Positions 2,075 through 63,350 of a DNA stretch of 64,000 nt are shown here, piece by piece. The translations under genes were made by a program, and so were the position numbers. The DNA is taken from assembly GCF_014696385.1 (NCBI RefSeq), contig NZ_JACJQB010000009.1, positions 1 to 64,000 of the forward strand, written 5' to 3'. Each line of letters begins with the position of its first letter. Positions within the stretch are counted from its first letter, which is position 1. Source of the stretch: Pseudanabaena mucicola FACHB-723. Its GTDB lineage: Bacteria; Cyanobacteriota; Cyanobacteriia; Pseudanabaenales; Pseudanabaenaceae. Under the pieces are notes generated by a model. It did not search any database. It saw only the letters and a program-made list of their open reading frames with translations, and was not told where the DNA came from.

Positions 2075-4990
2075 TTAGGAAATAGTGGAATATCTGGATA
2101 CGAGTTTAGATAAGGTTTGCAGCAGCTCATTGTCTTTGAAGGGTTTTGCAAAATAGGCAGACGCACCGAGGCGCATTGCTAAATCTCGATGTTTTGTGCC
2201 ACTGCGAGAGGTGAGCATGACGACGGGAATATTTTTGCAATATTGATCATGGCGCGACTGGGCTAAGAATCCAAATCCATCGAGACGGGGCATTTCAATA
2301 TCACAGATCACAGCACTGATTGGGGAACTAATTGGCAAAGTTGATAATTTCTGTAATTTTTCCATCGCCTCTAGTCCATCCTTTGCCTGTTCAACGCGAT
2401 AGCCAGCTTTTTCTAGGGTCATTGCCAAAAATCGGCGGACGTTGATCGAGTCATCAACGACCATGATCGTTGTGCGTTGATCGGTTCTTGCGGATGGCAG
2501 GGTGAGGGGATGGCTAGGTTTGCGATCGCAATCATTAATTGCCCAAGCGATCAGGCTGTCAATATCTACAAGTGGTGCCAGCTTGCCACCACCCAAAATT
2601 GCACAGCCCATAAATCCTGTCGGCATAGGAATTGCACTCTGGACTCCGCGAATAGTGACTTCTTGCTCACCCCAATATCGATTGACTTGTAAAGCAAAGG
2701 GAGCATTGTTTTTTGCCACAATCAGGATTAATGGCTCGTCAACAATCGGTCGATTTTCAGTTTCATTCTGAAATTGAGGGCGCGAAAAATGGAGGCGATC
2801 GCTCAGCTTAATTAAGGGGACCGAATATCCCTGCCAGTCCAATACTTCCTGATTAGCAACCGTATAAATAGAAGTCTCTTTGACTAAAATAATTTCTTCG
2901 ACGGCACTGGTGAGAATTGCCATTTGCAAGCCATTACTCTCCACTAAAAGTACCCTAGCAATTGAGAGAGACACAGGAACAGTTAGAGTAAAAGTTGTAC
3001 CTTTACCCGCATCGGTGGCAACATTTACGCTGCCGCCAATAATCTGCAAATTAGAGCGGACTACATCCATACCCACACCTCGCCCTGAGAGATCGGTGAC
3101 CCGATCGGCGGTACTAAACCCTGCTTCAAAAATGAGATCGAGTAACTCCGACTCTGCGGAATTAGCAAGATCACTCTCACTGATGCCCATCTGTAAAGCG
3201 CGATCGCGTAATTTCTGTAAATCAATCCCATTACCATCATCACTGACGGTAATAACGGTCTGATTGCCGCGATATCCTGCGAAGATTTCAATTTTGCCCT
3301 TGGCTGGTTTACCCTTGGCAATACGTTCTTCGGGAGATTCAATGCCATGATCAAAGGCGTTGCGAATTAGGTGCAAGAGTGGATCTTCTAAAAATTCTAA
3401 AACTGAGCGTTCTACTAGGGTAGAACTACCTCGCAAAATCAGTTCCACCTGCTTACCATGGGCTAATGATAAATCTCTGAGTAGACGCGGAAACCGACTA
3501 GTTACTTCACTAAGCATCCGCATTCTTGCCTGCTCGATCGCAGTTTGCATCTGGCGCGAGGCTCGACCTAGTTCCCTTTCATTTCCTTCCGTATCAGTTA
3601 AAGCAGTTTCCAGATCGCTTGAGACTTCCTGCAATTGCACAACGCTATCCATGATTTCCCGTGAGATGACATGCAACTCGCTATAGGAGTCCATTTCTAA
3701 GAGGTCAAAGAGACTGGTATAGGCAAGTAATGGCTCAGGATGATACGGGGGATTTGCAGCAATACCATTTTCACTAATTGCCGCATTGACGGTCATAAAC
3801 GAAGCCGATGAAGTTGCCACCCGATCATAGGCTGAGCGCAGTTGTGCGTTAGATTGCTCCAGACCATGCATTCTTGTATTTAAAAGCTGAATCAGATCGC
3901 GCATCCGCTTGAGCTGTAAACGTAAGCCACTGCGTTCAGCATTCAACTCACCAAAGCGATCGCTGAGAGCTTCGAGTTGACGACTCGGAATACGGATGGT
4001 GGTTTCTAGATTTGTTTCTGAATGTTGAGGAATTTCCATTTCCCCAGTTCTAGTATTGACATCTGTAAATACTGTCAAGTCGAGCAGCGATTGATCCAGA
4101 CTAATGACTTCATCTTCATGGATGAGACCGTACTCTATTCCTTCTTGGGGAATATCCTCAAGACTTGGAGAGGCAAGCGGAACAGTGGAGGCGATTGATG
4201 GGTTTTTCTGACTAAATTCGATGAGATGCTTGGGCAAAATCTCAAACTGACCAACCAATACTAGCGCTTGAGATTGTCGCCATGCGGCGAGGGCAGCAGT
4301 CGCCACCTCCCGCAAATTGCGATCGCGATCGGCAAGGGCATCACTAATCTCTTCACAGAGTTGACTAAATGCTGGTAATTCCAACATTTCCCCTAAACAG
4401 CCAAATTCTTGACTGGTAAGTTCAAATTCTTCGCGGAGTAACTGTGAGGTGGGGTCATCCAGAACGCCAGTTAATCGCTGTAAGCAAGCATCTACCTCAG
4501 TGGCAAACATGAGGACACGCATATCCTGTCCTGCCTCTTCCGAAAGCAGACTAGCTTCATCCTGTGCCGATAGTTCGCCGAGAACCTCTTGCAAATATTG
4601 AAAGGGAGGATGAATCTGTGCTGCTAACCACTCTGCATTAGGGATTTTTCGCTGTTTATGGATATTGGCAACCTTACCCATATTATCGATCGCAGTCAGA
4701 AATGAACTTTCAATTTCTGGGGTGATTTTAGTTTGCTTATTGGCCTGTAAGATTTTAAAAAAGTCTTCGAGACGGTGAGCAAGTTCACTTAAAGCCTCAA
4801 AACCCATCATCGCTGCGCCACCCTTCATGGAATGGGCAGCCCGTAAAATTTTGTCAATCGCCGATCGCGACAAATTGCGATCGCAAACGCCTAAGATCTC
4901 CGATTCAATATCAGCCAGAAAATCTCTAACTTCATCAAGGAATAATAATCGTACTGCCCATTCGCGATCGGTTAATGTATCGATTGCCAT
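2075..4990 (-). CDS. CheA-type hybrid histidine kinase (PilL/TaxAY-like)
   Basis: This 971-residue hybrid kinase is complete. It has an N-terminal Hpt domain with the phosphoacceptor His53 in AAHSMKGG, a helical dimerisation region, a HATPase domain with N box (HLIRNAFDHGIE, about 540), G1 (DDGNGID) and G2 (GRGVGMD, about 637), a CheW-like domain (about 690-835), and a C-terminal receiver with VVDDS, the phosphoacceptor Asp897 in CDIEMP, and the conserved Thr and Lys (MLTS, AKPF). In cyanobacteria such kinases receive signals from receptors and control type IV pilus motility or phototaxis. The gene lies between the chemoreceptor and a second CheW, 63 bases after the former. All catalytic motifs are intact, in contrast to the second CheA-like protein at 24051. 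Confidence 0.93.
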   Translation of the reverse strand: MAIDTLTDREWAVRLLFLDEVRDFLADIESEILGVCDRNLSRSAIDKILRAAHSMKGGAAMMGFEALSELAHRLEDFFKILQANKQTKITPEIESSFLTAIDNMGKVANIHKQRKIPNAEWLAAQIHPPFQYLQEVLGELSAQDEASLLSEEAGQDMRVLMFATEVDACLQRLTGVLDDPTSQLLREEFELTSQEFGCLGEMLELPAFSQLCEEISDALADRDRNLREVATAALAAWRQSQALVLVGQFEILPKHLIEFSQKNPSIASTVPLASPSLEDIPQEGIEYGLIHEDEVISLDQSLLDLTVFTDVNTRTGEMEIPQHSETNLETTIRIPSRQLEALSDRFGELNAERSGLRLQLKRMRDLIQLLNTRMHGLEQSNAQLRSAYDRVATSSASFMTVNAAISENGIAANPPYHPEPLLAYTSLFDLLEMDSYSELHVISREIMDSVVQLQEVSSDLETALTDTEGNERELGRASRQMQTAIEQARMRMLSEVTSRFPRLLRDLSLAHGKQVELILRGSSTLVERSVLEFLEDPLLHLIRNAFDHGIESPEERIAKGKPAKGKIEIFAGYRGNQTVITVSDDGNGIDLQKLRDRALQMGISESDLANSAESELLDLIFEAGFSTADRVTDLSGRGVGMDVVRSNLQIIGGSVNVATDAGKGTTFTLTVPVSLSIARVLLVESNGLQMAILTSAVEEIILVKETSIYTVANQEVLDWQGYSVPLIKLSDRLHFSRPQFQNETENRPIVDEPLILIVAKNNAPFALQVNRYWGEQEVTIRGVQSAIPMPTGFMGCAILGGGKLAPLVDIDSLIAWAINDCDRKPSHPLTLPSARTDQRTTIMVVDDSINVRRFLAMTLEKAGYRVEQAKDGLEAMEKLQKLSTLPISSPISAVICDIEMPRLDGFGFLAQSRHDQYCKNIPVVMLTSRSGTKHRDLAMRLGASAYFAKPFKDNELLQTLSKLVSRYSTIS

Positions 4991-18804: not shown

Positions 18805-19863
18805 TTAAACGCCAACGGCATCAGGAATACTCTTAAAAGAGGCGAGGGGCTTGTTAAATACCTGTGCCAAATGACGAGGAGCGCGATCGCACCAGTTACG
18901 CTTACCATAAACATAACCAGCGATCAAAGGTAAAGCTACAGTTGCTTCAGAGTAAACCATCTGCTCCTGTACAATATCGACCTTGCCCCAAGAATGTGCT
19001 TCCTTCAAGGTAGAGCCAGACAAAGCCCCATCACGCTCATCAGCGACGGTGATTTGCACAGCGTACTTGTGCATCGCAGTTTCAAAGCCAAGCAACTCAG
19101 CTGCTACCACAGTGTCCTGTGCAAAGTTCTTCGGCACACCACCACCGACCATAAATAGACCAGTGTGAGGACTTGCCAACTTGCACTGAGTCAATTCGCG
19201 GAAATCGCGTACAGAGTCAATGCTGATATGATCTTCAGGAGAGTTCCATTGGTGATGAACTAAACCAAAACCTGCGGAACAATCGCTAAAGGCAGGGACA
19301 AAGATTGGCACTTGATGCTCATAAGCTGCCAAAACAACTGAGTGGCGATTTTTGGCATTCTTATCAAGATATGCACCCATTTCATGGATAAACTCACGGG
19401 AGGAGTAGGTACGACGAGGTAGTGAATTAGCAATTTCGGCGATGGTCATGTCGCAAACGCGCAACTCATCTTCATCGATATAGGTGTCATAAATGCGATC
19501 GATCGCATTTTCCCGTAGTACGGCATCATCAGCGAAGGTATCGCCGACATAGTGACGAAATCCGAGGGCTTCAAAGAAATCTTGGTCAACGATATTTGCG
19601 CCTGTAGAGACAATCATGTCTACCATGTTGTTGGCGATCAGATCGTAAACAACCCCCTTGAGTCCTGCACTAAATAAAGAACCTGCCAAACACAGAATGA
19701 TCGCGCAATCTTTGTCCTTGATCATATCGTCGTAGATATGCGCCGCACGACCAAGATTTCTACCTTGGAAAGCGGTATTTGCCATTGCGTCAACTAATCC
19801 AACCACATCAAAAGCTTTGATGTCGATGTGTTCAACAGTCTGTTTAAGTAGTTCGCGTTTCAT
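18805..19863 (-). CDS. Deoxyhypusine-synthase-like enzyme
   Basis: The 352-residue protein belongs to the deoxyhypusine/homospermidine synthase family. It has the Rossmann-like glycine segment LAGSLFSAGLKG, the blocks STGANIVDQDF and VPAFSDCSAGFG, and the catalytic-lysine region EAHSWGKV. The eukaryotic enzyme transfers a butylamine group from spermidine to eIF5A, which bacteria lack. Cyanobacterial homologues are therefore thought to work in polyamine metabolism; the substrate cannot be read from the sequence. The start is placed at the ATG 19863 (MKRELLKQTVEH); a longer frame to 19956 adds 31 residues that look unlike the family. It is monocistronic with a strong terminator. Confidence 0.85.
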   Translation of the reverse strand: MKRELLKQTVEHIDIKAFDVVGLVDAMANTAFQGRNLGRAAHIYDDMIKDKDCAIILCLAGSLFSAGLKGVVYDLIANNMVDMIVSTGANIVDQDFFEALGFRHYVGDTFADDAVLRENAIDRIYDTYIDEDELRVCDMTIAEIANSLPRRTYSSREFIHEMGAYLDKNAKNRHSVVLAAYEHQVPIFVPAFSDCSAGFGLVHHQWNSPEDHISIDSVRDFRELTQCKLASPHTGLFMVGGGVPKNFAQDTVVAAELLGFETAMHKYAVQITVADERDGALSGSTLKEAHSWGKVDIVQEQMVYSEATVALPLIAGYVYGKRNWCDRAPRHLAQVFNKPLASFKSIPDAVGV

Positions 19864-20519
19864 GATTCTGTTTGTCCTAGATGCTTTGTGTTGTAAAGGT
19901 GTGCGAGAAATAAAGTATGAGAGAAAAATTTTGATCAGAACTTCAGAACAGAACAAGCAAAATCATATAATCTACAACAAAAAAATCATATCTGCGCTGT
20001 CACAGTTTATTGGCTTGGTAATATCTACGTCTATCTAGAGGCATAGTTATTACCAATTTAAAGCGCCAACTTAAAAAGTTAATCGCAGAAAACATCACTC
20101 TCTGTAGAGATTTTGACTGCTTATTCAGTTTTGAAAAATACTTAATCTTCTCAATCAATGAGAAGCGATCGACCTAGGTTGTTAACAGTGGTTACAACCC
20201 CAAGATTTAGAAGGTCGATCGGAACATACTGGGTCCCTCGCAGGCATCATCCCAAGAAAGAGTAGGATCAGACTCACGTCTGTCGTCCAACTTTAAGTTG
20301 AGTAGCCAATTACATTCAAGCAGTAAAACCAGTTTTTTCAATTTCTATTTAGCTGATTGCAATAAATCCTTAATCATATTAGCACTTTTATGTATAAACA
20401 CAAGCAAAATGGCGCTAGAGAATTTATATATATGTAAGTTTAACTATGTATCAGAGGAATTGTAGGGACTTAAACCTCCTTCTTGAAGCAAGATAGACGT
20501 ATTTCATGCAGGGACGATC
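19864..20519. other. Long intergenic region before the second chemosensory pair
   Basis: About 650 bases lie between two divergent genes. No convincing protein gene is present. The central part (about 20140-20300) is rich in inverted repeats and is listed as a candidate RNA. The final 90 bases should hold the promoter and leader of the receptor gene; gcagggacgatc precedes its start codon and contains a Shine-Dalgarno-like AGGGA. Confidence 0.5.
20140..20300. ncRNA. Candidate structured RNA, possibly Yfr2/Cyano-1-like
   Basis: Several nested stems are visible. gatcgacct (20167-20175) pairs exactly with aggtcgatc (20212-20220), enclosing an inner stem ggttgt/acaacc. ttctca/tgagaa lies just upstream, and caact/agttg lies downstream near 20288. 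After the main stem comes an apparently unpaired stretch, ggaacatactgggtccct, followed by gcaggcatcatccca. A GGAA(A)CA...GGTCCC segment between stems recalls the Yfr2/Cyano-1 family of cyanobacterial RNAs, but this is from memory and uncertain. No clear T-run terminator was found on the plus strand, and the direction is not settled. It could also be an untranslated leader. Confidence 0.3.
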
Positions 20520-23500
20520 ATGATGACAGCGCAGTATCAGACCGCTCTACACTCCTATGCGGAAGGTCGATATGAAGAGGCGATGCAGCAGTTTTCTGAG
20601 TTGTTGCAATCAGATCCTCATAACCCCAAGCTGCACATTTGGCTAGGGGCAACTTTTCGCAAGGCAGGAAAGGTTGAGTTGGCTCAGGCTCAATATCGCC
20701 AAGTTTTAACGCTTACCGAAGAACCAGATTTACTTGATCTTGCAAATACCTCACTTGCTCAAATTCAAAACCGATTGGACAGCACTGCACAGGGACGGGG
20801 TGCTGCCAAATCAACAGATTTCATGGCAGTTATTCAAGATTTGCCAGTCACAAATATTCATCAAGAGCCTATTCATCAAGAGCATCAAGCTGATCCGCAA
20901 GAAATTACCTACATTACCAATGGTGTTAGTGCATCATCAAGAGTTTTCGTAAATGGTAATGCGACAAATAGTAATGCGATGAATGGTAATACTAAAAATG
21001 GCAGTGCTAAGCTCAATGGAAACTCTAATAATGGAGTTACGAGCAATATCAATATTCTCAAAAATCTTGATCATATTCATGATCTCATTGACGATGCTAG
21101 TGCCAAAACAAATCCTCCAGACACATTAGTTTCACCTTTGACAAATGGTACTAATGGTTACCAAAAGATTGGAGATAGCCAAGATATTAGTAGTGGTTCG
21201 GTAGCTGTGCCGCCACCACCAGCCATAGCGATGTTATTGCGCCAAAAAGCAGACTTGGAACAGCCAGAGCAGGAATCACAGGATGTGATTATTGCTGATC
21301 CACTATGGGAGCAGGAATCGTCACCAACGGCAACAACGGTTTCTGAATATATCCATGATGATGATTTAACTGTATCTCTCAATAAGGCGGTTACGGATAT
21401 TCGTGAAGTGACCTCGAAGATGGAAAAAAAATCTCGGGCAACCAAGAAGTCTCATCGTGTTAAGCCTGCGGATCAATCAGCTAATGGTAGTCCTGCGATA
21501 TTAACAATGGCTGATCTGATCGCCCCCGAGAAGCCTCAAGGAATTGCCCTAGAAGACATGTTTAAATTCTCTAGCATTGGTCAGAGAATAACCCTTTGGG
21601 GAACTTTAGTGGCGACAATTCCCACGGTGGTATTGGGTGTGTTTGCCTATCAAGTTGGTGACAACTTGCTTACTAGCAAAGTGAAGCAAGGGTTGCGCAA
21701 TGAGGCGACTTCTATTGCTAATCGCACTAGTAATTTCCTGAATAAGCAAGCGACTGATGTGGAGGTATTACAAAAGCTATTAAGTTCAACTGATCAGATT
21801 TTGCTCCCTAAAGTACCGACAGTAGTTCCCAATCCGAACGCAACTGTGCCTAATGCACCTGTCGTCAATCGCCCGCCGAATGTTGCGCCGAATCAGGCGG
21901 CGAACCCATTAGCTTCTTTGCCCATTGCTCAACAGCGTCAGTATAAGCAACAGTTAACTAGTCGTCTCAATTTATATAGACAAGCCTATCCTGAATATAG
22001 CCGCATTTCCCTATTCAGTGCTAATGGTGATTTACTGGCTCAGTCTAGTAACTCGCAAACATTACCAACTTTAAGCCCAGAAATCCGCAGCCAAGTAAGT
22101 TTGATGCAGACAGTGCTATTGACTAATCCTGTCGCTGGGAAAGAGGTGGCGAATATCTATGCCATCTCGATGATTAAGAGTTCCGCAGCTCAAATGCCTA
22201 ATTTGATTTTACAAGTTGAAATCCCTTTGCAGAAATTAGACCGTGAGCTAGAAAATGGAGGTTTGAATAGTGATAATGGAACTTCTATTGGCAGTACCAA
22301 CAGTTTTTATGTGGTTGATGGTACTAATCGATATGTAGCTAGTTCCCAGTCTGTCAAGATTGGTGCGGATGCCTTAGGTGATTTCGCCATATTACCTAGC
22401 TTGCGAGCATCCCAGACAGTGGATGTGCGTGATTTGAGTAGAAGCGATCGCAGTAATGTGCAGATGCTTGCCTATGCCCCTGTACTCAATACGCAGGACA
22501 ATATGTTGAATTGGGCTGTATTCGTGACCGCAGATAAGCCTGCATCCCTTGCAAGTAGTCAAAACTTGTTACTGGTGATTGCGATCGGCATTGCCTCAAC
22601 TCCTCTTTTTGTGGGGATTGTCGCCTATGCCATGTCACGCTCTTTGAGTGCTAGGCTCAAAGCAATTCGGACTGCTCTATGGAAGCTCAAGAAATCCTAT
22701 ATGGGTTTTCAGTCCTTAGAGGTAGAGGGAAATGATGAATTGGCGGATATTTCCTTGAGCATCAATACCATGGCTGCACAGTTTCAGGCGATGCTCCAGA
22801 AGCAAGAAAAAGAAAATCAGCGCCTCCAGATACAAGTGGTTAAGTTGTTTAAGGTTTTGTCTAAGTTGGCAAGGGAAGAGCAACAGGAAGTTGTACTTAC
22901 GGAGATATCCGATCAAAAGATTCTTTATCTTGGCAAGAAAGTCCGCGCTGAGATTGTGCAGCAGCACAATGATGTCGAAAAGTATCGTCAACAGCAAGGA
23001 CAAATTCAGACGCAGTTGACGGAAATGCTTAGAGAAATGCAGACCTTGACTAGTGGCGAACTGCCCGTTGCGGTGACAGCAATAGATAGTAATTTTGACA
23101 ATCTGCCTGTGGTGTTTGATGGGGTTTTACAGGGATTGCAAAATGTTGTGGGGCAAGTGAAGTCTTCTGCTAAGCAAGTCAATATTGCCCTCGGACAAAA
23201 TGAACATGCGATCGCAAATTTGGCTCTGGTGTCTCAACGACAGGTAGATGCGGTTTCGCGATCGCTAAATACAGTACAGATGGCAAAGTTATCAGCAAAT
23301 ACGATTATGGACGACAGTCAGCAACTGTCCCAGTCCGCGCATTTGGTTGCTGAAAAGCTATCCGACAGCGATCGCAGTATTGATGCAGTTATGTCAAAGA
23401 TTAGTGAATTGCAAAATACTATTGCTACAACTGCCAAGCGGGTCAAACATTTGGGGGTTGCCTCTCAAAAAATCGCCAAAGCGATCTCCTCGATCAATGA

Positions 23501-23990
23501 AATCGCGATTCAAACTAATTTCTTAGCAATTAACGCGACTCTTGAAGCATCGCGATCGGGTGATGTTAACAGTAAATTTGTGATTGTTGCGGAAGAAGTG
23601 GGAGAACTAGCGGCTCGATCTGTGGCTGCGGGTAAAGAAGTAGAAAGCCTCTTGAGTAATATCCAGCAAGAAACTAATGCGGTAATGGCTGCCGTTGAAT
23701 CAGGTAGCAGTCAAATTTCTGAGAGCGAAACCTTAGCTGGCTCTGCGAGGGAAAATCTCCAGCAAATTGCACAAATATCCAATCAAATCGATGGATTGAT
23801 GGTATCAATCGCCGCCGCGACGACCGCTCAGTCCCAAACCTCCGAAGGATTGGCTAATTTGATGACTGATATCTCTCATATGGCAAAGCGGACAATGGAC
23901 TATTCTTCGGAAGCGACAACATCGATTAAGGAAACCAAGCAACATGCTGGAGAACTCCAGAAAACCTTGTCGCACTTTAAAAGTCGCTAG
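20520..23990 (+). CDS. Chemoreceptor with N-terminal TPR domain
   Basis: The 1156-residue protein starts with about two tetratricopeptide repeats (residues 5-80: ALHSYAEGRYEEAMQQFSEL, ATFRKAGKVELAQAQYRQVL). There follows a low-complexity Asn/Gly-rich linker (about 140-190), a first membrane segment (about 357-380), a large extracytoplasmic domain, a second membrane segment (about 682-706), a HAMP domain, and an MCP signalling region. The tip (about 991-1035) reads QTNFLAINATLEASRSGDVN and then FVIVAEEVGELAA. The cytoplasmic TPR in front of the first membrane helix is unusual and could recruit partner proteins. ATG codons at 20520 and 20523 are both possible; AGGGA at 20510-20514 fits the second better. 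The adjacent downstream gene is a CheA-like protein. Confidence 0.92.
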   Translation: MMTAQYQTALHSYAEGRYEEAMQQFSELLQSDPHNPKLHIWLGATFRKAGKVELAQAQYRQVLTLTEEPDLLDLANTSLAQIQNRLDSTAQGRGAAKSTDFMAVIQDLPVTNIHQEPIHQEHQADPQEITYITNGVSASSRVFVNGNATNSNAMNGNTKNGSAKLNGNSNNGVTSNINILKNLDHIHDLIDDASAKTNPPDTLVSPLTNGTNGYQKIGDSQDISSGSVAVPPPPAIAMLLRQKADLEQPEQESQDVIIADPLWEQESSPTATTVSEYIHDDDLTVSLNKAVTDIREVTSKMEKKSRATKKSHRVKPADQSANGSPAILTMADLIAPEKPQGIALEDMFKFSSIGQRITLWGTLVATIPTVVLGVFAYQVGDNLLTSKVKQGLRNEATSIANRTSNFLNKQATDVEVLQKLLSSTDQILLPKVPTVVPNPNATVPNAPVVNRPPNVAPNQAANPLASLPIAQQRQYKQQLTSRLNLYRQAYPEYSRISLFSANGDLLAQSSNSQTLPTLSPEIRSQVSLMQTVLLTNPVAGKEVANIYAISMIKSSAAQMPNLILQVEIPLQKLDRELENGGLNSDNGTSIGSTNSFYVVDGTNRYVASSQSVKIGADALGDFAILPSLRASQTVDVRDLSRSDRSNVQMLAYAPVLNTQDNMLNWAVFVTADKPASLASSQNLLLVIAIGIASTPLFVGIVAYAMSRSLSARLKAIRTALWKLKKSYMGFQSLEVEGNDELADISLSINTMAAQFQAMLQKQEKENQRLQIQVVKLFKVLSKLAREEQQEVVLTEISDQKILYLGKKVRAEIVQQHNDVEKYRQQQGQIQTQLTEMLREMQTLTSGELPVAVTAIDSNFDNLPVVFDGVLQGLQNVVGQVKSSAKQVNIALGQNEHAIANLALVSQRQVDAVSRSLNTVQMAKLSANTIMDDSQQLSQSAHLVAEKLSDSDRSIDAVMSKISELQNTIATTAKRVKHLGVASQKIAKAISSINEIAIQTNFLAINATLEASRSGDVNSKFVIVAEEVGELAARSVAAGKEVESLLSNIQQETNAVMAAVESGSSQISESETLAGSARENLQQIAQISNQIDGLMVSIAAATTAQSQTSEGLANLMTDISHMAKRTMDYSSEATTSIKETKQHAGELQKTLSHFKSR

Positions 23991-24050
23991 CGTTTATTCA
24001 CGATATATGCACGCAGAAACCAACTAAAAACAGATGTCATAGGTTCTCCA

Positions 24051-27000
24051 ATGAGTAAAGCTATATCAGTTAAAAAAGTCTTCTCTAAGGAAGCTCAGAG
24101 TTATATTCAAGAGCTAAAGAACAAGGTTCTAGAGCTAAATGTTGGGCATTCTAATTTTCACGAACAGCTTGAAGATTTGATCTCGACTAATCATAGGTTA
24201 CATAGTTTATTAGCAGATTCAGAGTTTGGTACTTCTAAGGAGTTTTTAGTTGAACTAAATAGTCGATTTGAGTCTTCTATTAACTTATTGAGAGGACTTC
24301 AGCAAGAAGTTGATTGGATTACCAAGGAGCTATTTCTAGAGGTAATTAATATCACCAGCCAAATAATTAATGAATATTGTCTAGACCGAAAAATAATCGA
24401 AGATAAAATATCTCTACAAAATAATTTATTTAATCAAATTTCTGAACATTTATCCAAAGAACAGGATGAATACACGAGCTTTTTTAAAATAAATCAGAGT
24501 TTAGACAATCCGAACAATCTAAATAGCGCAAATAGTATTACTGATGCTGAAATTGATGCGATTAATGATCCTTTTCAGTTAGAGGATAGTGCTGAGGCTT
24601 TACATCTTTTTGATTTTGATACAGAAATCGATTCTCATGATTTAGATTCAGAAATTAATCACGATGACTCGGAAAACTTTTTGATGATCCAGCTTGATGA
24701 AGATGAAAGCTTAGAATCTCTCGATTTATTTAGTAATGACTCCGAGGAACTAAGTCCTGATTTCTTTCCTGAATTATCATCGGATATCTTTGATAGTACA
24801 GCAGGAGATATTGCTTTACCCCCTGCTTTATCTAATCCTTTCCCTAATGAGTCAATCAAGGAAAATGGTGCTCGACTGAATGGTACACATCTTCCTAATC
24901 AAGAAGTGCGCTTACCAATTCCTAAATTACTGGCGGATATTTTTTTAGAGTCATCATCTGAGCCTTTATTGGGAGAGCAGGAGGATACTGAAATTGTAGA
25001 AATGGTTGATGAAGACCATGAGGTTGTTACTATCGATGATGATCATCTCGAAAGTGATTGGGATGGATTTATTAATCTAGACTTCTCTACCGCAGATGTG
25101 GATACAGCTCTAGAGGAGTCACCCATTTACCAAAGTAAATCCGATGATTGTGAGACGGCACTGGAGGAGTCACCTATTTACCAGAGCCAATCTGCGAACT
25201 TACCAGATCATCAGATAGAAGAGCAAGGCATTTCCTATGAGGAGTTTGTCAATTCTTCTTCAGAGCAAGAGGCTGAACATAGATATGAATTACAAGGCGA
25301 AACTACTTCCCAAGAGAGTCATAATCATGATGCTAGTAATACTGTTGGAGCGGAAGAGAAGAATTTGTCAAATCCGCTTTCCTTACGGCAAGGTCAGCAG
25401 ATTGTCTCCAAAAATGATGCAACTATCCGCATTCCTGTAAGTCACTTAGAAGTTTTAGGAGATTTGTCTGAAGAGCTATTAGTCCGTAAGGGAAGCCTAG
25501 ATGTTTATTTAGGTCAAATGCGGGTATTGTCGGGCGAAGCCCAAAGACATTTACAGTTATTGGAATCTGATGTATCTGATCAAAACCAAACTGCGATCGC
25601 AGGTTTACAAAAATCAGTTGAGCGGATTGTCAATGTTTTAGATTTAACTGAACAACAAACCTACGCGATGAGTCAAGATGTCCGCCATCTCCGTCAAAAT
25701 CTTCGTCAAGTCTTGAAACATCCTATTTCTAGCCTTGTCAGAAAATTTCCCCGCATTTTACGCGATCTGTCGATTCAGCATGGCAAACAGGTTGAACTAG
25801 TTGTACAGGGAGCAGATATTAGTGTCGAAAGACTGATTTCTGAAATTATTGCCGAGCCCCTAGAGGTGCTATTGCGTAACGCTTTTGAGCATGGTATCGA
25901 GTCTGCCTATGAGCGCCAAAGACAGGGGAAACCTGTACAGGGCAAGATCGAATTTATTGTTACACAGACTGATGACAGTACTATCATCAAAATTAGCGAT
26001 GATGGCAATGGGGTTGATATTGATAAAATCCGCAATCACGTCGAGCAGTCGGCGGCAGTTGCAGGGATGCCAGGATTCTCGGCAATGGATATGGCGGATG
26101 AGCAGTTAGTGGGATTAATTTTTGAGCCAAGTTTCCATCAAGCCCATAGTTCCAGTTCTGCGGACACGAAGCCAAAGCTAAGTGATATTAGAAAAAAATT
26201 GCGCGAATTTGGTGGCACAATCTCGGTTAGCTCTCAGCCCAGACAAGGTACACAATTTACGATGGTGTTGCCCCATTTGTTATCACTGATGCGCATTTTA
26301 TTGCTTGACATTAATCAAATGTGCTTAGCAATGCCGAGTCAATGCGTGCTAGCTGTAATTCCGATTGATAGTCATAACGAGTCTTATCTTGAGCAAGACG
26401 CTTTGTTATGGCGCGATCGCTTCTTGCCGATTGTACGCCTTGATGAAGTCTTGAAACTGAATTGTCGCCGTCATCATCAGGATGCGCTGCAAATTAGTCA
26501 AACCAATCCATCAAGTAACTCTCTGGAACGCTCTCGCCCTCCCCATGCTGTCCCAACGTTTGTGATTGTGCAGCATGAAAATGATTTGTTTGCGATGCAA
26601 ACTGACGGTTGTTGGAATGAGCAGGAGGCTACATTTCATCAGGTGGAAGGCGATATTTTGCTACCACAAATTTTCCTCGGCACTGTTGTTTTGGGGACAA
26701 ATCAAGCGATGGCGTTGCTGAATCCTGCGGAAATAGTTAGCCAATGTTTGCGATCGCGTCCCAATGATGCGGTGTTAATTTCCCATAATTCTGATTTAGA
26801 TAGCTTGAGCAGCTTGTCAGATTTTTTCAGTGCCTCTGATGTGGAGACAGATAATGGGGAGAAGGACTCTGAATTTTTGCCTGAGCCAGAAAATCTAGAA
26901 AGCTCTCAGTTGTTCATTAGTAGTCAAATTCAAGGGCAGATTTTCAATAGTAGTCCGCGCTCACAGCCACCAAGGGTCTTAATTGTGGAATCTTCGGCAA

Positions 27001-27347
27001 ATATTAGACGTTATTTGGCGATGACTCTAAATAAGTTAGGGTTTGAAACTTATCAAGCGGGTGGTCGTACGGATGCGATCGCAATTTTACGGCAATGTTT
27101 AGAGAAAGAGACGGGCATTGAGGCAGTAATTACTGACTTAGAAATGCCAAATCGTGAGGGCTTTAATTTGCTCTCTGATATTCGTGATGATCGGCAGTTG
27201 CAAGGTCTGCCTGTGGTTGTGTTAAATGCTCAAGACAATCAAGATGACTGGCAACAAGCCCAAGAGCTGGGAGCTGATGCCTATTTTAGTAAGCCCTATC
27301 AAGCTCAAGAATTGGTTGATAAGCTACAGCAATTGCTGGGGAGTTAA
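24051..27347 (+). CDS. Degenerate CheA-like protein with receiver domain
   Basis: The 1098-residue protein has CheA architecture but lacks key residues. The N-terminal region resembles an Hpt helix bundle (STNHRLHSLLADSEFG, His48) without the usual HxxKG pattern. A long acidic linker (about 150-440) holds a duplicated TALEESPIYQS. The HATPase-like domain keeps an N box (LLRNAFEHGIES) and G1 (SDDGNGVD), but the G2 glycine box GRGVGMD of the other CheA is absent. A CheW-like domain follows. The terminal receiver has VESS instead of VDDS, keeps Asp1029 (TDLEMP) and Lys (SKPY), and has Asn where Thr/Ser is normal (VVLNAQ). It likely scaffolds signalling more than it phosphorylates; that is inference. 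It lies 60 bases after the TPR receptor. Confidence 0.85.
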   Translation: MSKAISVKKVFSKEAQSYIQELKNKVLELNVGHSNFHEQLEDLISTNHRLHSLLADSEFGTSKEFLVELNSRFESSINLLRGLQQEVDWITKELFLEVINITSQIINEYCLDRKIIEDKISLQNNLFNQISEHLSKEQDEYTSFFKINQSLDNPNNLNSANSITDAEIDAINDPFQLEDSAEALHLFDFDTEIDSHDLDSEINHDDSENFLMIQLDEDESLESLDLFSNDSEELSPDFFPELSSDIFDSTAGDIALPPALSNPFPNESIKENGARLNGTHLPNQEVRLPIPKLLADIFLESSSEPLLGEQEDTEIVEMVDEDHEVVTIDDDHLESDWDGFINLDFSTADVDTALEESPIYQSKSDDCETALEESPIYQSQSANLPDHQIEEQGISYEEFVNSSSEQEAEHRYELQGETTSQESHNHDASNTVGAEEKNLSNPLSLRQGQQIVSKNDATIRIPVSHLEVLGDLSEELLVRKGSLDVYLGQMRVLSGEAQRHLQLLESDVSDQNQTAIAGLQKSVERIVNVLDLTEQQTYAMSQDVRHLRQNLRQVLKHPISSLVRKFPRILRDLSIQHGKQVELVVQGADISVERLISEIIAEPLEVLLRNAFEHGIESAYERQRQGKPVQGKIEFIVTQTDDSTIIKISDDGNGVDIDKIRNHVEQSAAVAGMPGFSAMDMADEQLVGLIFEPSFHQAHSSSSADTKPKLSDIRKKLREFGGTISVSSQPRQGTQFTMVLPHLLSLMRILLLDINQMCLAMPSQCVLAVIPIDSHNESYLEQDALLWRDRFLPIVRLDEVLKLNCRRHHQDALQISQTNPSSNSLERSRPPHAVPTFVIVQHENDLFAMQTDGCWNEQEATFHQVEGDILLPQIFLGTVVLGTNQAMALLNPAEIVSQCLRSRPNDAVLISHNSDLDSLSSLSDFFSASDVETDNGEKDSEFLPEPENLESSQLFISSQIQGQIFNSSPRSQPPRVLIVESSANIRRYLAMTLNKLGFETYQAGGRTDAIAILRQCLEKETGIEAVITDLEMPNREGFNLLSDIRDDRQLQGLPVVVLNAQDNQDDWQQAQELGADAYFSKPYQAQELVDKLQQLLGS

Positions 27348-47798: not shown

Positions 47799-48782
47799 TT
47801 AAATAACATCAACTAAATCTATCATTCTTTTATCCTTTGCTTTGGTTGCCTTACACAAAGTTTTCGTTTCCAAGAAAGAATTAGAAAATCTTTTGTGTTT
47901 TAAAATAGTAGAAGCAACGAAAAAAGCTAAATTCACAGGAACAGCATTACCGATTATTTGCTCTAGATTTGTTTTAGTGCCAAAAAACTTAAATGATTCG
48001 GGAAAAGTTTGAATATAACTTCGTTCGATTGTCGTTAGAGGTCTGATAGTTGAAATATCAATATCCTGTGGATCGCCACTATGCAGTTGATAATTTGGCG
48101 GCATAGGACGATTCACACCTCTTATCGTTGGACTTGGCTCATCAATCGAGAAAACCCCTCTTCGAGCATAGCTTCTAGGATGTCGATAATAATATTGTAG
48201 ATTTAATCTATCTCCAAGATAATCCCTAATTGTCATAGGTTTATTTGCTAAATTAATTTTAAATAAATCTACTAAAGCATTTTGATCTCCACCAAACTCA
48301 CCAATTAAGAAGAAACGCGATCTTGCCTGTGGTACATGACAAAGTGAAGCATCTAAAACAACACTAGATAAACCATAGCCACATTTCATAAACTGCTTCG
48401 ATATTTCGGAAAGAATAGGACTCTTTGTAATTCTTTGCACATTTTCCATCACAAACCATTGTGGTTTAATCGCGCAGACAATGTTTGCGAAGTTATAAGT
48501 TAGATTGGCACGATCACCATTTAGATTGCGTTTACCAGCACTCGAAAAATCTTGACATGGTGAACCACCAATAATCATTTGAGGAGCATATTTTTCAATT
48601 ATTTTAATTGACGTAATTTCTTCAGATAAATCCTGTTGAATAGCAGGATGATCAAAGTTTTTTCTATAGATATCTAAAGCGATATTCCAATTATCAATAG
48701 CTGCCAAAATCTCAATTCCCGCTTTCTGAAAGCCAAGAGATAATCCACCACAGCCACTAAATAAATCAACGGCTGTAATCAT
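47799..48782 (-). CDS. DNA (cytosine-5) methyltransferase
   Basis: The 327-residue enzyme has the C5-methyltransferase motifs: I (DLFSGCGGLSLGF), IV with the catalytic Cys (GGSPCQDFSSAG), VI (WFVMENVQRI), VIII (QARSRFFLI) and IX/X near the C-terminus (IIGNAVPVNLAFFVASTIL). It methylates cytosine in the recognition site of the adjacent endonuclease, protecting host DNA. Its start overlaps the endonuclease stop by four bases. The pair is AT-richer than its surroundings and I see no GCGATCGC within it, consistent with acquisition from outside. The recognition sequence is inferred from the endonuclease family (GRCGYC for HindVP). Confidence 0.93.
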   Translation of the reverse strand: MITAVDLFSGCGGLSLGFQKAGIEILAAIDNWNIALDIYRKNFDHPAIQQDLSEEITSIKIIEKYAPQMIIGGSPCQDFSSAGKRNLNGDRANLTYNFANIVCAIKPQWFVMENVQRITKSPILSEISKQFMKCGYGLSSVVLDASLCHVPQARSRFFLIGEFGGDQNALVDLFKINLANKPMTIRDYLGDRLNLQYYYRHPRSYARRGVFSIDEPSPTIRGVNRPMPPNYQLHSGDPQDIDISTIRPLTTIERSYIQTFPESFKFFGTKTNLEQIIGNAVPVNLAFFVASTILKHKRFSNSFLETKTLCKATKAKDKRMIDLVDVI

Positions 48783-49834
48783 GAGAATAGCTCTGGTGAA
48801 TTAAAAATAATCGCGTCAAATCTACGCTCTGGACTAAGTAGATTTTGTCCTCCTCCTAAAATAATATTTTTGATTTCGTCTTTTTTAATCCTCGGAGATG
48901 TCAAATTTTCACATGACATATAGGGATTAGTTACATTACCTGCGGAAGCAAAAGCTTTATCATTTCTAGTATTATAAGAAAGCTTGTCAATGATGTCTTT
49001 GTAGTCACATCTGCTGTGAATACAGATATCTAAAAGCATTTTATACAGCCAAATACTTGTTCTTGTTTGACGAGTTATGTGAGTTACAGTATTATCATTT
49101 TTTGATATTTGTGATATAAACCAAGCAAACGCTGCATCACTCCATACAAAAACATCTAGACAATTCTCTGCAAGCTTCGGCGATTTGCCAACTGTCTTCC
49201 AAATTGGATGTAAAAGAAATGGTGATTGACTTTTTTCAATAGCAATACTGATATCAGATATACAGCCAACAATTTTTTGAATACTGGTAATTACTTCTCT
49301 AGCATCAGACCAATTATCAATCACAACATCACTACTTTCTATATGATGTTTGACTATCTCGGTATTTGCACTAAATATACTGGCTGCTAGATATACGATT
49401 GTGTCAGGTCTAACAACAAGCTCGCAACCAAATTTGTCATCACTCAGATTGCAAGTAGTATTATCAGGTATGGCGGTTAACTTAACTTCTAATCCTCGTA
49501 AGCATTGCCCTGTCAAACTATCTTGAATTACCAGATCAGTTCTAGGTAAGCTACCAATTACATATTTTTGAAATGGCGTATGTTGTGCTTCAAAAGCAAA
49601 ATAGGTATTGTTTTTGCTAGGTTTAATACCAAATACGACAGCAATATCAATTAAACTTATGACAAACTCTTGATTAGCCATAGATATGTAATTAGCTGCA
49701 ATTCCTTGATTGTCAAGATAACAAGATAAAGCTGCTGGAAAACTTGAATTAAATTGATTTTTACCCCAAGAATCGGCTTTAGAAAAATCTCGATTGGAAT
49801 TGTTTAAGCCAAATAGGCTTGCTTGTGTTGTCAT
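48779..49834 (-). CDS. HindVP-family type II restriction endonuclease
   Basis: The 351-residue protein opens with LFGLNNSNRDFSKADSWGKN, a signature I recognise from the HindVP restriction endonuclease family. A PD-(D/E)xK-like core is visible (RTDLVIQDSLTG, then LEVKLT at residues about 120-140). It would cut unmethylated DNA at its recognition site. Start: ATG 49834 with an AAGGA Shine-Dalgarno sequence; the stop of a truncated DUF29 frame lies four bases before it. The methyltransferase follows with a four-base overlap. Family assignment is from memory of the N-terminal block. Confidence 0.85.
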   Translation of the reverse strand: MTTQASLFGLNNSNRDFSKADSWGKNQFNSSFPAALSCYLDNQGIAANYISMANQEFVISLIDIAVVFGIKPSKNNTYFAFEAQHTPFQKYVIGSLPRTDLVIQDSLTGQCLRGLEVKLTAIPDNTTCNLSDDKFGCELVVRPDTIVYLAASIFSANTEIVKHHIESSDVVIDNWSDAREVITSIQKIVGCISDISIAIEKSQSPFLLHPIWKTVGKSPKLAENCLDVFVWSDAAFAWFISQISKNDNTVTHITRQTRTSIWLYKMLLDICIHSRCDYKDIIDKLSYNTRNDKAFASAGNVTNPYMSCENLTSPRIKKDEIKNIILGGGQNLLSPERRFDAIIFNSPELFS

Positions 49835-49838
49835 TAAT

Positions 49839-49937
49839 CTATCCTTGTGCTGACAAAAGTAAAAAAATCGCATCTTCTAACCACAAATTAAGATCGCGAT
49901 CATACAGCGTGGATTTTTGCTCAATAGTCTGGGTCAT
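49839..49937 (-). pseudogene. N-terminal remnant of a DUF29 gene (right copy)
   Basis: A 32-codon frame encodes MTQTIEQKSTLYDRDLNLWL and then EDAIFLLL, a DUF29 start truncated after about 24 codons. Its stop codon lies four bases before the endonuclease ATG, so ribosomes finishing this short peptide could re-initiate on the endonuclease. A near-identical start occurs inverted at 62627-62710. Confidence 0.75.
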
Positions 49938-59070: not shown

Positions 59071-59107
59071 GATTAATCGCATTCCCCATTGGGGAATGCG
59101 ATTAATC
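59071..59107. repeat. 17-bp perfect palindrome
   Basis: gattaatcgcattcccc, loop att, exact complement, between the YlqD-like gene and the first radical SAM gene. There is no T-run after it, so simple termination is doubtful. Confidence 0.75.
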
Positions 59108-59136
59108 CTATCCGCCCACTTATCCCCAAAATAGGT

Positions 59137-60723
59137 ATGAACGTTCTACTGGTTTACCCACTTTTTCCAAAAACATTTTGGTCTTACGAAAAAATCCTAG
59201 AGCTAGTAAATCGTAAAGTGTTACTGCCACCTCTAGGCTTGATTACCGTTGCCGCAATCTTGCCCCAAGAATGGAATTTTAAATTGGTCGATCGCAATGT
59301 GCGCTCAATTACTGAAGCTGAGTGGCAATGGGCGGATATGGTGATTCTGTCAGCAATGATCGTCCAGAAGGATGACTTGTTGTCGCTGATTAAAGAAGCG
59401 AAACAACGGGGTAAAAAAGTTGCCTGTGGTGGCCCCTACCCCACTTCAATGCCCGAAGAACCTCAAGCGGCAGGCGTTGATTACCTGATTTTGGATGAAG
59501 GCGAAATTACTTTGCCGATGTTTGTCGATGCGATCGCAAAAGGTGAAACCAGTGGCATTTTCCGCACTAGTGAAAAGCCCGATGTTACCGCTACACCCGT
59601 GCCGCGCTTTGACCTCTTAGAATTTGACGCATACGACTCGATGTCGGTGCAGTTCTCCCGTGGTTGCCCCTTCCAGTGCGAATTTTGCGACATCATCGTT
59701 CTGTACGGACGCAAACCCCGTACTAAAACTCCTGCCCAGTTACTTGCCGAACTAGATTACTTGTATAGTCTCGGCTGGCGGCGCGGTGTATTTATGGTTG
59801 ACGATAACTTCATCGGCAATAAGCGTAATGTGCGTTTGCTCTTACTAGAACTGAAGGAATGGCAAAAAGAACATGGCTATCCTTTCCGATTTAATACGGA
59901 AGCATCAATTGACTTGGCCGCCGATCAAGAGCTCATGGATCTGATGGTGGAGTGCTATTTCGATGCCGTATTTCTGGGAATCGAAACCCCTGATGAAGAT
60001 AGTTTGCAGATGACTAAGAAGTTTCAAAATACAAGGTCATCCTTGCTAGATGCCGTGGAAGCAATTACCAAGACAGGTATTCGGGTCATGGCAGGCTTTA
60101 TCATTGGTTTTGATGGGGAGAAAAAAGGGGCAGGTGAGCGCATTGTCCGATTTGCCGAACTCACAGGCATCCCCACCACTACCTTCGCGATGTTGCAAGC
60201 TTTGCCCCACACTGCCCTTTGGCATCGTCTTGAAAAAGAAGGACGTTTGCGATCGCAGAATGGCAACTTGAACCAAACCACCCTGATGAACTTCGAGCCA
60301 ACCCGCCCCGTCGAAGAAATTGCTCGCGAATATGTCGAAGCCTTCTGCGCTTTGTATGAACCCCATGCCTATCTAGATCGTGTCTATAGCTACTTCCTAA
60401 AGCTGGGTGCACCAAGAGTTAAGGCAGAAGCCAAACTCCCCACCCTTACCGATCTCAAAGCCTTGGCAATTATCGTTTGGCGACAAGGGATCAAGCGCAA
60501 CACTCGTTGGAAATTCTGGCATCACCTATTTAGCATGATCAAGCTGAATCCTGCCGTGTGGGAGCATTACCTAATCGTCTGCGCTCACAATGAACATTTC
60601 ATGGAGTACCGCGACATTGTTCGCCGCGAAATTGAGGGGCAGCTCGCTGCCTATTGGGCAGAAGAAGAGAGACTAAAGCAGTTACAGCCAACTCCCGAAA
60701 GGGAACTCGATCTGGCTAGCTAG
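59137..60723 (+). CDS. B12-binding radical SAM enzyme with DUF4070 tail, copy 1
   Basis: The 528-residue enzyme has an N-terminal cobalamin-binding domain (VLLVYPLFPKTFWSYEK, then VILSAMIVQKDD and GGPYPTSMPEE). A radical SAM core carries the iron-sulfur motif RGCPFQCEFCDI (CxxxCxxC) and FMVDDNFIGNKR, and a C-terminal DUF4070-type region follows. It resembles HpnP-like methylases (2-methylhopanoid synthesis) and related cobalamin radical SAM proteins. The exact substrate is not clear from sequence. It starts at ATG 59137 after AGGT. The next gene is a close paralogue on the same strand, so this is a tandem duplication. Confidence 0.88.
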   Translation: MNVLLVYPLFPKTFWSYEKILELVNRKVLLPPLGLITVAAILPQEWNFKLVDRNVRSITEAEWQWADMVILSAMIVQKDDLLSLIKEAKQRGKKVACGGPYPTSMPEEPQAAGVDYLILDEGEITLPMFVDAIAKGETSGIFRTSEKPDVTATPVPRFDLLEFDAYDSMSVQFSRGCPFQCEFCDIIVLYGRKPRTKTPAQLLAELDYLYSLGWRRGVFMVDDNFIGNKRNVRLLLLELKEWQKEHGYPFRFNTEASIDLAADQELMDLMVECYFDAVFLGIETPDEDSLQMTKKFQNTRSSLLDAVEAITKTGIRVMAGFIIGFDGEKKGAGERIVRFAELTGIPTTTFAMLQALPHTALWHRLEKEGRLRSQNGNLNQTTLMNFEPTRPVEEIAREYVEAFCALYEPHAYLDRVYSYFLKLGAPRVKAEAKLPTLTDLKALAIIVWRQGIKRNTRWKFWHHLFSMIKLNPAVWEHYLIVCAHNEHFMEYRDIVRREIEGQLAAYWAEEERLKQLQPTPERELDLAS

Positions 60724-60738
60724 GTCTAAAGATAATCT

Positions 60739-60765
60739 AAAGGGTGGTGCTTTGCGCCACCCTTT
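60739..60765 (+). terminator. Hairpin between the radical SAM paralogues
   Basis: aaagggtggtgc, loop ttt, gcgccacccttt (one wobble). It could terminate or attenuate between the two genes. Confidence 0.7.
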
Positions 60766-60815
60766 ATAATATACACAGTCCAAAATCAAATAAAAATAAC
60801 CCCAAGCCATAAATA

Positions 60816-62432
60816 ATGCGTGTTTTACTCGTCTATCCTTTATTTCCGAAAAGCTTTTGGTCATTTGAGAAAACACTCGAATTAGTTGGTTACAAAGCAC
60901 AGCTTCCTCCCCTTGGTATGGTTACTGTTGCTGCGATCTTGCCACAATCTTGGGAATTTAAACTCGTCGATCGTAATGTCCGTGATATTACCGAAGCCGA
61001 ATGGGAATGGGCGGAAGTGGTGATTCTTTCGGCGATGATTGTCCAAAAAGAAGATTTCTTAGCTCAAATTCAAGAAGCGAAAAAGCGCGGTAAATTAGTT
61101 GCTGTTGGTGGCCCTTATCCAACTGCTTTACCTGAAGAAGCAAAAGTCTCGGGGGCAGATTTCCTGATTCTTGACGAGGGGGAAATTACTTTACCAATGT
61201 TTGTCGAAGCCATTGAAAGAGGCGATCGTTCAGGTATTCTTCGTGCCAATGGTGAAAAACCTGCGGTTACTGATACGCCTATCCCGCGCTTTGATCTATT
61301 GGAAATGAACCGTTATGCGGAAATGTCGGTGCAGTTCTCCCGTGGTTGCCCGTTTCAGTGTGAATTTTGCGACATTATCGTACTTTACGGACGCAAGCCC
61401 CGCACCAAGACCCCTGCTCAAATTCTTGCCGAATTGCAATGTCTTTACGACCTTGGTTGGAGACGCAGTATTTTCATGGTCGATGACAACTTCATTGGCA
61501 ACAAACGTAATGTGAAGGTGATGCTGCAAGAGCTAAAGCCTTGGATGAAGGAGCGCAATTATCCTTTCTCCTTTGCCACCGAAGCATCAGTTGATCTTGC
61601 CCAAGATCCTGAAATGATGCAGATGATGGTGGAATGTAACTTTGGTTCTGTGTTTCTCGGCATCGAGACCCCCGACACCGATAGTCTTGCGCTTACCAAG
61701 AAGTTCCAAAACAATCGTGATCCTCTCTCAGAATCGGTGATTAATATCGCCAGAGCAGGGATTCGGGTGATGGCAGGTTTCATCATCGGCTTTGATGGTG
61801 AGAAAAAAGGTGCAGGCGATCGCATTGTCCAGTTCGTTGAACAAACTGCTGTACCCACAGCGCTATTTAGCATGTTGCAAGCCTTACCCGATACAGGTTT
61901 GTGGCATCGCCTGAATAAAGAAGGAAGAATGATTACCCAGAATAGCAATGGGCATCAAACTACTTTGATGAACTTCATGCCTACTCGTCCGTTAGAGGAT
62001 ATCGCGACGGAGTATGTTCATGCTTTTTGGACTCTTTATGATCCATTAGTATTTCTCAATCGCACCTATCGCCATTTCTTGATTCTTGGAGAATCACAGT
62101 ATAAGCGCATCAAGCGAGAGAAGACTGATGCTAAGAAGAGAACTGATTGGACGGCAATTAAAGCATTGCTAATTCTCTGCTGGCGACAAGGTGTTGTTCG
62201 TAAGACCCGTTTCCAATTCTGGATTAATCTCTTCGACTTGATGAAGCGTTATCCGAATGTCGTCACCAGCTACTTATCCGTTTGCGCTCAAGGCGAGCAT
62301 TTCCTCGAATATCGTTCCATTGTGCGTGAACAAATAGAATCTCAGCTTGCTGATTATCTAGCTAATCCTCCTGTGCTTCAGCCCAAGGTAGAGACAGCCG
62401 AGAAGCAACAGGATTTGCAAGAAGTGAAGTAG
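60816..62432 (+). CDS. B12-binding radical SAM enzyme with DUF4070 tail, copy 2
   Basis: The 538-residue product parallels copy 1 throughout, including RGCPFQCEFCDIIVLYGRKP and VDDNFIGNKRNV, with differences concentrated in the C-terminal third. It has the same domains: cobalamin-binding, radical SAM (CxxxCxxC) and DUF4070-type. Retaining two copies side by side suggests different substrates or successive steps, for example on a membrane lipid; this is inference. Start ATG 60816 (MRVLLVYPLFPKSFWSFEK). The gene is followed by a duplicated, non-coding scar region. Confidence 0.88.
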   Translation: MRVLLVYPLFPKSFWSFEKTLELVGYKAQLPPLGMVTVAAILPQSWEFKLVDRNVRDITEAEWEWAEVVILSAMIVQKEDFLAQIQEAKKRGKLVAVGGPYPTALPEEAKVSGADFLILDEGEITLPMFVEAIERGDRSGILRANGEKPAVTDTPIPRFDLLEMNRYAEMSVQFSRGCPFQCEFCDIIVLYGRKPRTKTPAQILAELQCLYDLGWRRSIFMVDDNFIGNKRNVKVMLQELKPWMKERNYPFSFATEASVDLAQDPEMMQMMVECNFGSVFLGIETPDTDSLALTKKFQNNRDPLSESVINIARAGIRVMAGFIIGFDGEKKGAGDRIVQFVEQTAVPTALFSMLQALPDTGLWHRLNKEGRMITQNSNGHQTTLMNFMPTRPLEDIATEYVHAFWTLYDPLVFLNRTYRHFLILGESQYKRIKREKTDAKKRTDWTAIKALLILCWRQGVVRKTRFQFWINLFDLMKRYPNVVTSYLSVCAQGEHFLEYRSIVREQIESQLADYLANPPVLQPKVETAEKQQDLQEVK

Positions 62433-63002: not shown

Positions 63003-63350
63003 TTACTGCAAATCAAGAATAGTTTTTAAGGCTTGGGCTAGTTGTTGGATATACGGTTCTTCTAATTGCCCGATCGCTTTGCGAATTCTAGTTTTATCAA
63101 TCACTCGAATCTGTTCACAGAGGATTACTGAGTCTTGAGAAAGACCACCGATGTCTTTGGGGACAAATACGTGAGAGGGCAAAAGTGCGCGGCGAATTTT
63201 GGTTGTGAATGGGGCGATGATTGTATGGGGGCTGACTCTGTTGGCGCGATCGCTTTGGACAATAACGGCAGGTCGAATGCCTGACTGTTCTGTACCAATT
63301 ACGGGATTGAGGTCACATAGAACGATATCGCCTCTGGTGACTGTTACCAT
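63003..63350 (-). CDS. MazF/PemK-family endoribonuclease toxin
   Basis: The 115-residue protein has the MazF pattern: VTRGDIVLCDLNPVIGTEQSG, RPAVIVQSDRAN, TIIAPFTTKI, LCEQIRVIDKTRI. MazF toxins cut mRNA at short sequences and are neutralised by a co-encoded antitoxin. Its ATG overlaps the stop of the antitoxin gene by seven bases. All expected segments are present, so the toxin is probably functional. Confidence 0.92.
   Translation of the reverse strand: MVTVTRGDIVLCDLNPVIGTEQSGIRPAVIVQSDRANRVSPHTIIAPFTTKIRRALLPSHVFVPKDIGGLSQDSVILCEQIRVIDKTRIRKAIGQLEEPYIQQLAQALKTILDLQ

Follow-up and report, generated by a model that had tools for sequence, protein, structure and literature searches.

We identified in the window (the whole 64,000-nucleotide stretch of Pseudanabaena mucicola FACHB-723 DNA analyzed here) a CheA homolog, hereafter pseudo-CheA, in which the P1 domain, the P4 domain and the metal site of the receiver are all degraded, and are so throughout the genus. 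This combination in a single CheA, fixed across a genus, distinguishes the case from the known systems compared below; no report of pseudo-CheA and the TPR-containing chemoreceptor encoded beside it was found in the literature on CheA pseudokinases or cyanobacterial TPR receptors, which was covered mostly through non-subscription papers. As expected of a pseudo-histidine kinase, the protein keeps the kinase fold, has lost catalytic residues across its orthologs and evolves under purifying selection. From these sequence features, we propose that the receptor and pseudo-CheA probably form a non-catalytic signaling platform, by which active chemosensory complexes, most plausibly those of the type IV pilus (PilJ/PilL-type), would be tuned or positioned.

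The two proteins are encoded by codirectional open reading frames (ORFs) separated by a 60-bp gap. The original prediction of a TPR chemoreceptor paired with a degenerate CheA, with a complete CheA elsewhere in the window, was borne out by the ORFs, Pfam matches and alignments, which delimited the following genes:

20520..23990, + strand: transmembrane chemoreceptor with TPRs (1156 aa; Pfam: MCPsignal, E 5.5e-28, and TPRs; its ortholog adjoins pseudo-CheA in 26/26 genomes)
24051..27347, + strand: degenerate CheA homolog, pseudo-CheA (1098 aa; Pfam and alignment)
2075..4990, - strand: intact CheA paralog used for contrast (HSMKGG, GRGVGMD and VDD intact)
18808-19956, - strand: deoxyhypusine-synthase-family gene (PF01916), oriented divergently to the receptor gene

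Each of the 26 Pseudanabaena genomes searched contains the pair, and named orthologs belong almost exclusively to strains of this genus. The pair lacks a dedicated CheW or CheY gene alongside it, a point against the proposed platform. The deoxyhypusine-synthase-family gene is divergent beside the pair in every congener whose fetched stretch reaches that far and adjoins the pair receptor also in two other genera of the family. Given the conservation of this neighbor within Pseudanabaena and in those two genera, its regulation or function may be linked to the pair. The CheA at 2075-4990 is complete (P1, P4, P5 and receiver) and lies within a patA-cheY-cheY-cheW-mcp-cheA-cheW cluster. Elsewhere, the window carries a HindVP-type restriction endonuclease with an adjacent C5-cytosine methylase in a low-GC stretch (47802-49873, - strand), two B12-binding radical SAM proteins with DUF4070 in tandem (59089-62429, + strand) and a PemK/MazF-family toxin gene (63006-63350, - strand).

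Pfam matched pseudo-CheA to HATPase_c (residues 605-742), CheW (749-897) and REC (976-1092) and returned no Hpt or H-kinase_dim match. The HATPase_c and CheW matches, both over the cut-off, mark the protein as a CheA homolog, with P3 recognized by alignment rather than by Pfam. Its features are as follows:

24060..24476, + strand: decayed P1 (Hpt) domain, a predicted five-helix bundle (profile-profile match, AlphaFold2 model and PDB matches)
24192..24209, + strand: HRLHSL at the HxxKGG position
25101..25184, + strand: tandem copies of the linker motif [DE]TALEESPIYQ (linker residues 351-378), 51 bp apart
25413..25850, + strand: P3-like dimerization region with long helices (alignment to CheA P3; model, block pLDDT mostly 67-86)
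25863..26276, + strand: P4 HATPase-like domain with G1 kept (Pfam HATPase_c 42.8 bits vs 65.4 in the complete CheA)
26166..26186, + strand: TKPKLSD at the G2-box position, where aligned intact CheAs have GRGxGxD/S
26295..26741, + strand: P5 CheW-like domain (Pfam CheW E 9.1e-6)
26976..27326, + strand: receiver domain with VES in place of VDD, Asp1029 and Lys1081 kept (Pfam Response_reg E 2.4e-17; column counts)

The bundle at the N terminus represents a P1/Hpt domain that has decayed. Profile-profile comparison aligned residues 4-142 with intact cyanobacterial P1 profiles over 126 columns (prob 98.2, E 3.8e-14), and 20 column-shuffled alignments run as a control reached at most 1.1. Modeled with AlphaFold2, the bundle comprised five helices (pLDDT 85), and its best PDB matches were to the P1 domain of Salmonella CheA (1i5n, TM 0.74; Foldseek E-values no better than 2e-3). 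The column of the phosphorylated histidine holds Lys in 13 orthologs, Arg in four, Ser in three, Gly in two and Gln, Asn, Glu and His in one each. The sole His is H48 of the present protein, which is followed by RLHSL rather than by xxKGG. Thus, the canonical HxxKG motif is absent from all 26 orthologs, as had been predicted for this protein, with the refinement that here, as in no ortholog, a His fills the phospho-His column.

The P4 domain, too, has lost sequence motifs. The core from P3 to P5 was modeled poorly (pLDDT 53.8), and the evidence on P4 is thus drawn from the sequence and not from the model. The G1 Asp is retained in 26/26 orthologs and the N-box Asn in 20/26 (otherwise Lys in three, and Ser, Ile or Tyr), so that six of the 26 genomes have lost this Mg-binding residue. 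None of the 26 has the G2 glycine box (GRGxGxD) at the aligned columns: the first and third glycine positions are never Gly, and the second is Gly by alignment in 11, within a non-glycine-box stretch such as DTGTKLS. Three orthologs carry a GxGxG string beyond residue 450, which in L074 overlaps G1; none of the three strings falls in the columns aligned to G2. Further, eight genomes (G009, G014, G020, G002, G021, G013, G188 and G219) lack the segment that precedes G2 (F-box/ATP-lid), which spans about residues 658-700 in the present protein. By contrast, the His, the Lys and the G2 box are all present in the CheAs aligned from elsewhere whose P1 and P4 domains could be read, four of them from this genome; the exceptions are the CheAs of genus g22. 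Either of two findings had been named beforehand as speaking against a degenerate kinase, an intact G2 box or a phosphotransfer His; in the 26 orthologs, both the box and a conserved His were looked for and not found. The absence of the G2 box noted in the original prediction therefore holds, and orthologs share it together with the loss of HxxKG.

In the receiver, 25 orthologs have Glu and one has Asp at the first position of the acidic pair, while 25 have Ser and one has Ala at the second; the Asp and Lys are invariant (26/26), and the Thr is retained in 23/26. Both VESS and VVLNAQ, the predicted substitutions, are present in the protein. The replacement of the DD pair is the family trait, and VVLNAQ/VVLN is private to the present genome among the 26. 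With the phospho-acceptor Asp in every ortholog, the domain is not a pseudo-receiver in the strict sense, though its metal-binding pair is altered. Since the G1 Asp, most N-box Asn and the receiver Asp and Lys remain, pseudo-CheA may still bind nucleotide or undergo weak receiver phosphorylation.

The linker between P1 and P3 is long and poorly conserved (mean 0.40), yet it includes a motif, DTxxEESPIY, that is invariant in 26/26 orthologs (conservation 0.95 in its alignment window) and missing from all intact relatives compared. This invariance in an otherwise variable linker, together with the absence from intact relatives, suggests a gained docking site. The tandem 51-bp duplication of the motif is found only in this genome, the other congeners having a single copy, and DNA encoding EESPIYQ occurs nowhere else in the genome. 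Other conserved stretches of the linker are ALHLFD, LSSLSDFF and PEPENLES.

The receptor combines an MCP signaling hairpin with two transmembrane helices read from the sequence, as in methyl-accepting chemotaxis proteins. Its features are the following:

20520..20780, + strand: N-terminal cytoplasmic TPR block, the most conserved part of the receptor (identity, dN/dS)
21207..21230, + strand: conserved VPPPPAIA motif within a variable linker (9-residue window conservation 0.92-0.94 vs a linker mean of 0.35)
21588..22637, + strand: TM1, extracytoplasmic region and TM2 (hydrophobic stretches at about residues 357-380 and 682-706, read from the sequence)
23337..23876, + strand: MCP signaling domain with a diverged hairpin tip (Pfam MCPsignal; consensus count)

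By Pfam, the TPRs occupy residues 4-67, N-terminal of the first membrane helix at about 357-380, and MCPsignal spans 940-1119; a match to dCache_1 was weak (E 0.07). Over about 84-86 aa, the TPR block is 80-86% identical to those of other congeners and 57-77% identical in four other genera of the family. The predicted position of the TPRs before the first membrane helix was thus confirmed; the layout itself is not unusual, being common to cyanobacterial PilJ-type receptors, including the PilJ of the same genome. These also share the MCP signaling domain, but the receptor of the pair falls in a clade of its own (100/100) and has a diverged hairpin tip. The tip matches 19/34 consensus residues, vs 27-31/34 in other receptors of the same genome. 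Across the whole pair lineage the count is 15-24/34 (other receptors, 27-32), including where the CheA is intact, and the divergence of the receptor is therefore not a consequence of kinase loss.

Relatives of the pair indicate how the degenerate form arose. In the sister genus (g21), the ortholog of the TPR receptor (71-73% identity over the TPR block) precedes a CheA that has HSLKGG and GRGVGMDVV. The pair CheAs of genera g18 and g17 also have HxxKG and G2; in g23, one contig carries the receptor together with the start of an HxxKG-bearing CheA, and a second contig carries a G2-bearing CheA. That the sister genus and others of the family have orthologous pairs in which CheA is intact implies that the ancestor was of the active type and that catalysis was lost later. 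In the trees, the receptors of the pair group as a single clade (100/100), and a branch supported at 100/100 on the paralog side sets the pair CheAs off from paralogs. A second degraded form occurs in genus g22 (two genomes), whose pair CheA lacks the N-box Asn and has the G2 region deleted, with the receiver still VDD; in the genome with a readable P1, both the phospho-His and the Lys are replaced by Arg. The P4 domain of these proteins (L097:2959-6678 and L098:3295-6713) is even more reduced, the ORF is split in two in L098 and the P3-P5 stem branch has 3.08 changes per column. The rpoB (83/75) and receptor (80/88) trees place g21, with its intact CheA, next to Pseudanabaena, and g22 outside, which favors two separate losses, although an AU test on rpoB did not reject a grouping of Pseudanabaena (g1) with g22 (p 0.10). 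The losses in the two genera were probably independent. Our tentative view of the broader outcome, put forward as somewhat less probable than not, is that CheA was turned into a non-phosphorylating adaptor in Pseudanabaena and probably a second time in g22: every phosphotransfer station (P1, P4 and the receiver metal site) would have decayed, with the receptor partnership retained, EESPIY becoming fixed as a new docking motif and the receptor signaling by protein binding.

Pseudo-CheA is not a PilL-C, as a PilL-C from a genome with a split pilL joins the PilL of this genome at 100/100, apart from pseudo-CheA. A C13-type operon adjoins the pair in four congeners (G016, G005, G012 and G010), with apparent remnants beside the pair in G019 and G017; as a required partner it was rejected, its CheA being present in 12/26 genomes vs 26/26 for the pair.

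Other explanations for a conserved CheA of this kind were weighed against the non-catalytic platform. A gene on its way out would have long branches, as pseudo-CheA does, and raised pairwise dN/dS (Nei-Gojobori), which is 0.13-0.27 for pseudo-CheA, above the 0.07-0.16 of orthologs of the window's active-type CheA (0.07-0.18 for the receptor and 0-0.12 for its TPR block). These values are nevertheless well under 1, as expected of a gene that is not dying, and with an intact, full-length ORF in 26/26 genomes, invariant linker motifs and constant synteny they speak against decay, to which we assign a negligible probability. We also consider it very improbable that the receiver serves as an output or phosphate sink for other Hpt domains while the remainder of the protein only anchors it. 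The retention of the phospho-acceptor Asp, the Lys and, in most orthologs, the Thr is what such a role would call for, but the metal-binding acidic pair is altered in all 26, and this alteration usually blocks efficient phosphorylation in characterized receivers.

Somewhat less improbable, yet still unlikely, is a split kinase, in which an atypical but active P4 would phosphorylate a separate Hpt domain in trans. A candidate substrate exists: contig C78 of the genome encodes a stand-alone 377-aa protein with an intact P1 (HSIKGG) and no kinase (L059:5489-6622). Moreover, pseudo-CheA keeps G1 and usually the N-box Asn, and split CheAs are real, as in Synechocystis PilL-N/PilL-C and Rhodobacter sphaeroides CheA4/CheA3 (PMC7656254, PMC10782961). 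Against this, G2 is gone in every ortholog, the preceding segment is deleted in eight and the Mg-binding Asn is replaced in six; the C78 Hpt protein resembles PilL-type N-termini, and its genome encodes a complete PilL besides; and the PilL-C that was compared has retained G2 and clusters with PilL rather than with pseudo-CheA. More credible, if still doubtful, is an array modulator or dominant negative that co-assembles or forms mixed dimers with active CheA, lowering the kinase output per receptor and setting or capping gain. The retained P3 and P5 homology and the active-type CheAs of all congeners fit this explanation, but the P3 and P5 sequences are so strongly diverged that mixed dimers are uncertain, and the receptor tip has diverged too.

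The non-catalytic platform could operate as follows. The membrane receptor would bind dimeric pseudo-CheA through the hairpin tip and the P5/CheW-like domain. Pseudo-CheA, which would no longer autophosphorylate or relay phosphate, would link the conformational state of the receptor and its TPRs to partners docking on the linker motifs (EESPIY and others), and the docked partners would tune or position active complexes. Chemotaxis-like systems are central regulators of cyanobacterial type IV pili (PMC12288463), and a PilL-type CheA is present in 26/26 congeners. The association with pili has little weight, however, being one of co-occurrence with a PilL that every member of the genus has. We infer the loss of kinase activity, array membership, the partner and the output from the sequences. 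The original description of a chemosensory-derived, possibly kinase-dead scaffold is supported in part, by the losses shared by 26/26 orthologs, the low dN/dS and the pairs with intact CheA in the family; the scaffold role itself is a proposal. The EESPIY motif provides a handle for finding the partner.

Comparison with known systems sets pseudo-CheA apart from each of them. It shares with the cyanobacterial CheAs of type IV pilus systems (Tax/Pix/Hmp; e.g., 2075-4990) the P1-P3-P4-P5-REC order and an adjoining receptor gene, but lacks their P1 HxxKGG, P4 G2 box and receiver DD pair and carries a long acidic linker with the invariant EESPIY motif. In Synechocystis, CheA is split into PilL-N/Hik36 and PilL-C/Hik43 (slr0322) (PMC7656254). 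Like PilL-C/Hik43, pseudo-CheA combines DIM, CA, CheW and REC domains with no usable P1 of its own. Unlike PilL-C, it keeps a decayed P1 fold, and its family orthologs are single-chain CheAs; the split CheA that we compared, from another genome (not slr0322), keeps GRGVGMD and groups with PilL. The CheA3 of R. sphaeroides belongs to an active array although its kinase domain is dead; its P1 works and is phosphorylated by CheA4 (PMC10782961). Pseudo-CheA would likewise keep a non-functional kinase domain in a signaling array, but its P1 is degraded too. Caulobacter DivL, a pseudo-histidine kinase, exerts its regulatory role with no kinase activity (PMC4211667), a use of the histidine kinase fold that pseudo-CheA may share; DivL, however, is a histidine kinase of the PAS-domain type in which Tyr takes the place of the His, and is neither a CheA nor chemoreceptor-bound. 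In a survey of 13,673 CheA sequences, P1, P3, P4 and P5 formed the core of every CheA, with no substantial variation in kinase-domain size (PMC10782961). Set against that survey, the degraded and intact pairs of Pseudanabaena and its relatives are a natural experiment on the roles of a receptor-CheA complex beyond phosphorylation, such as array building, spacing and output by binding.
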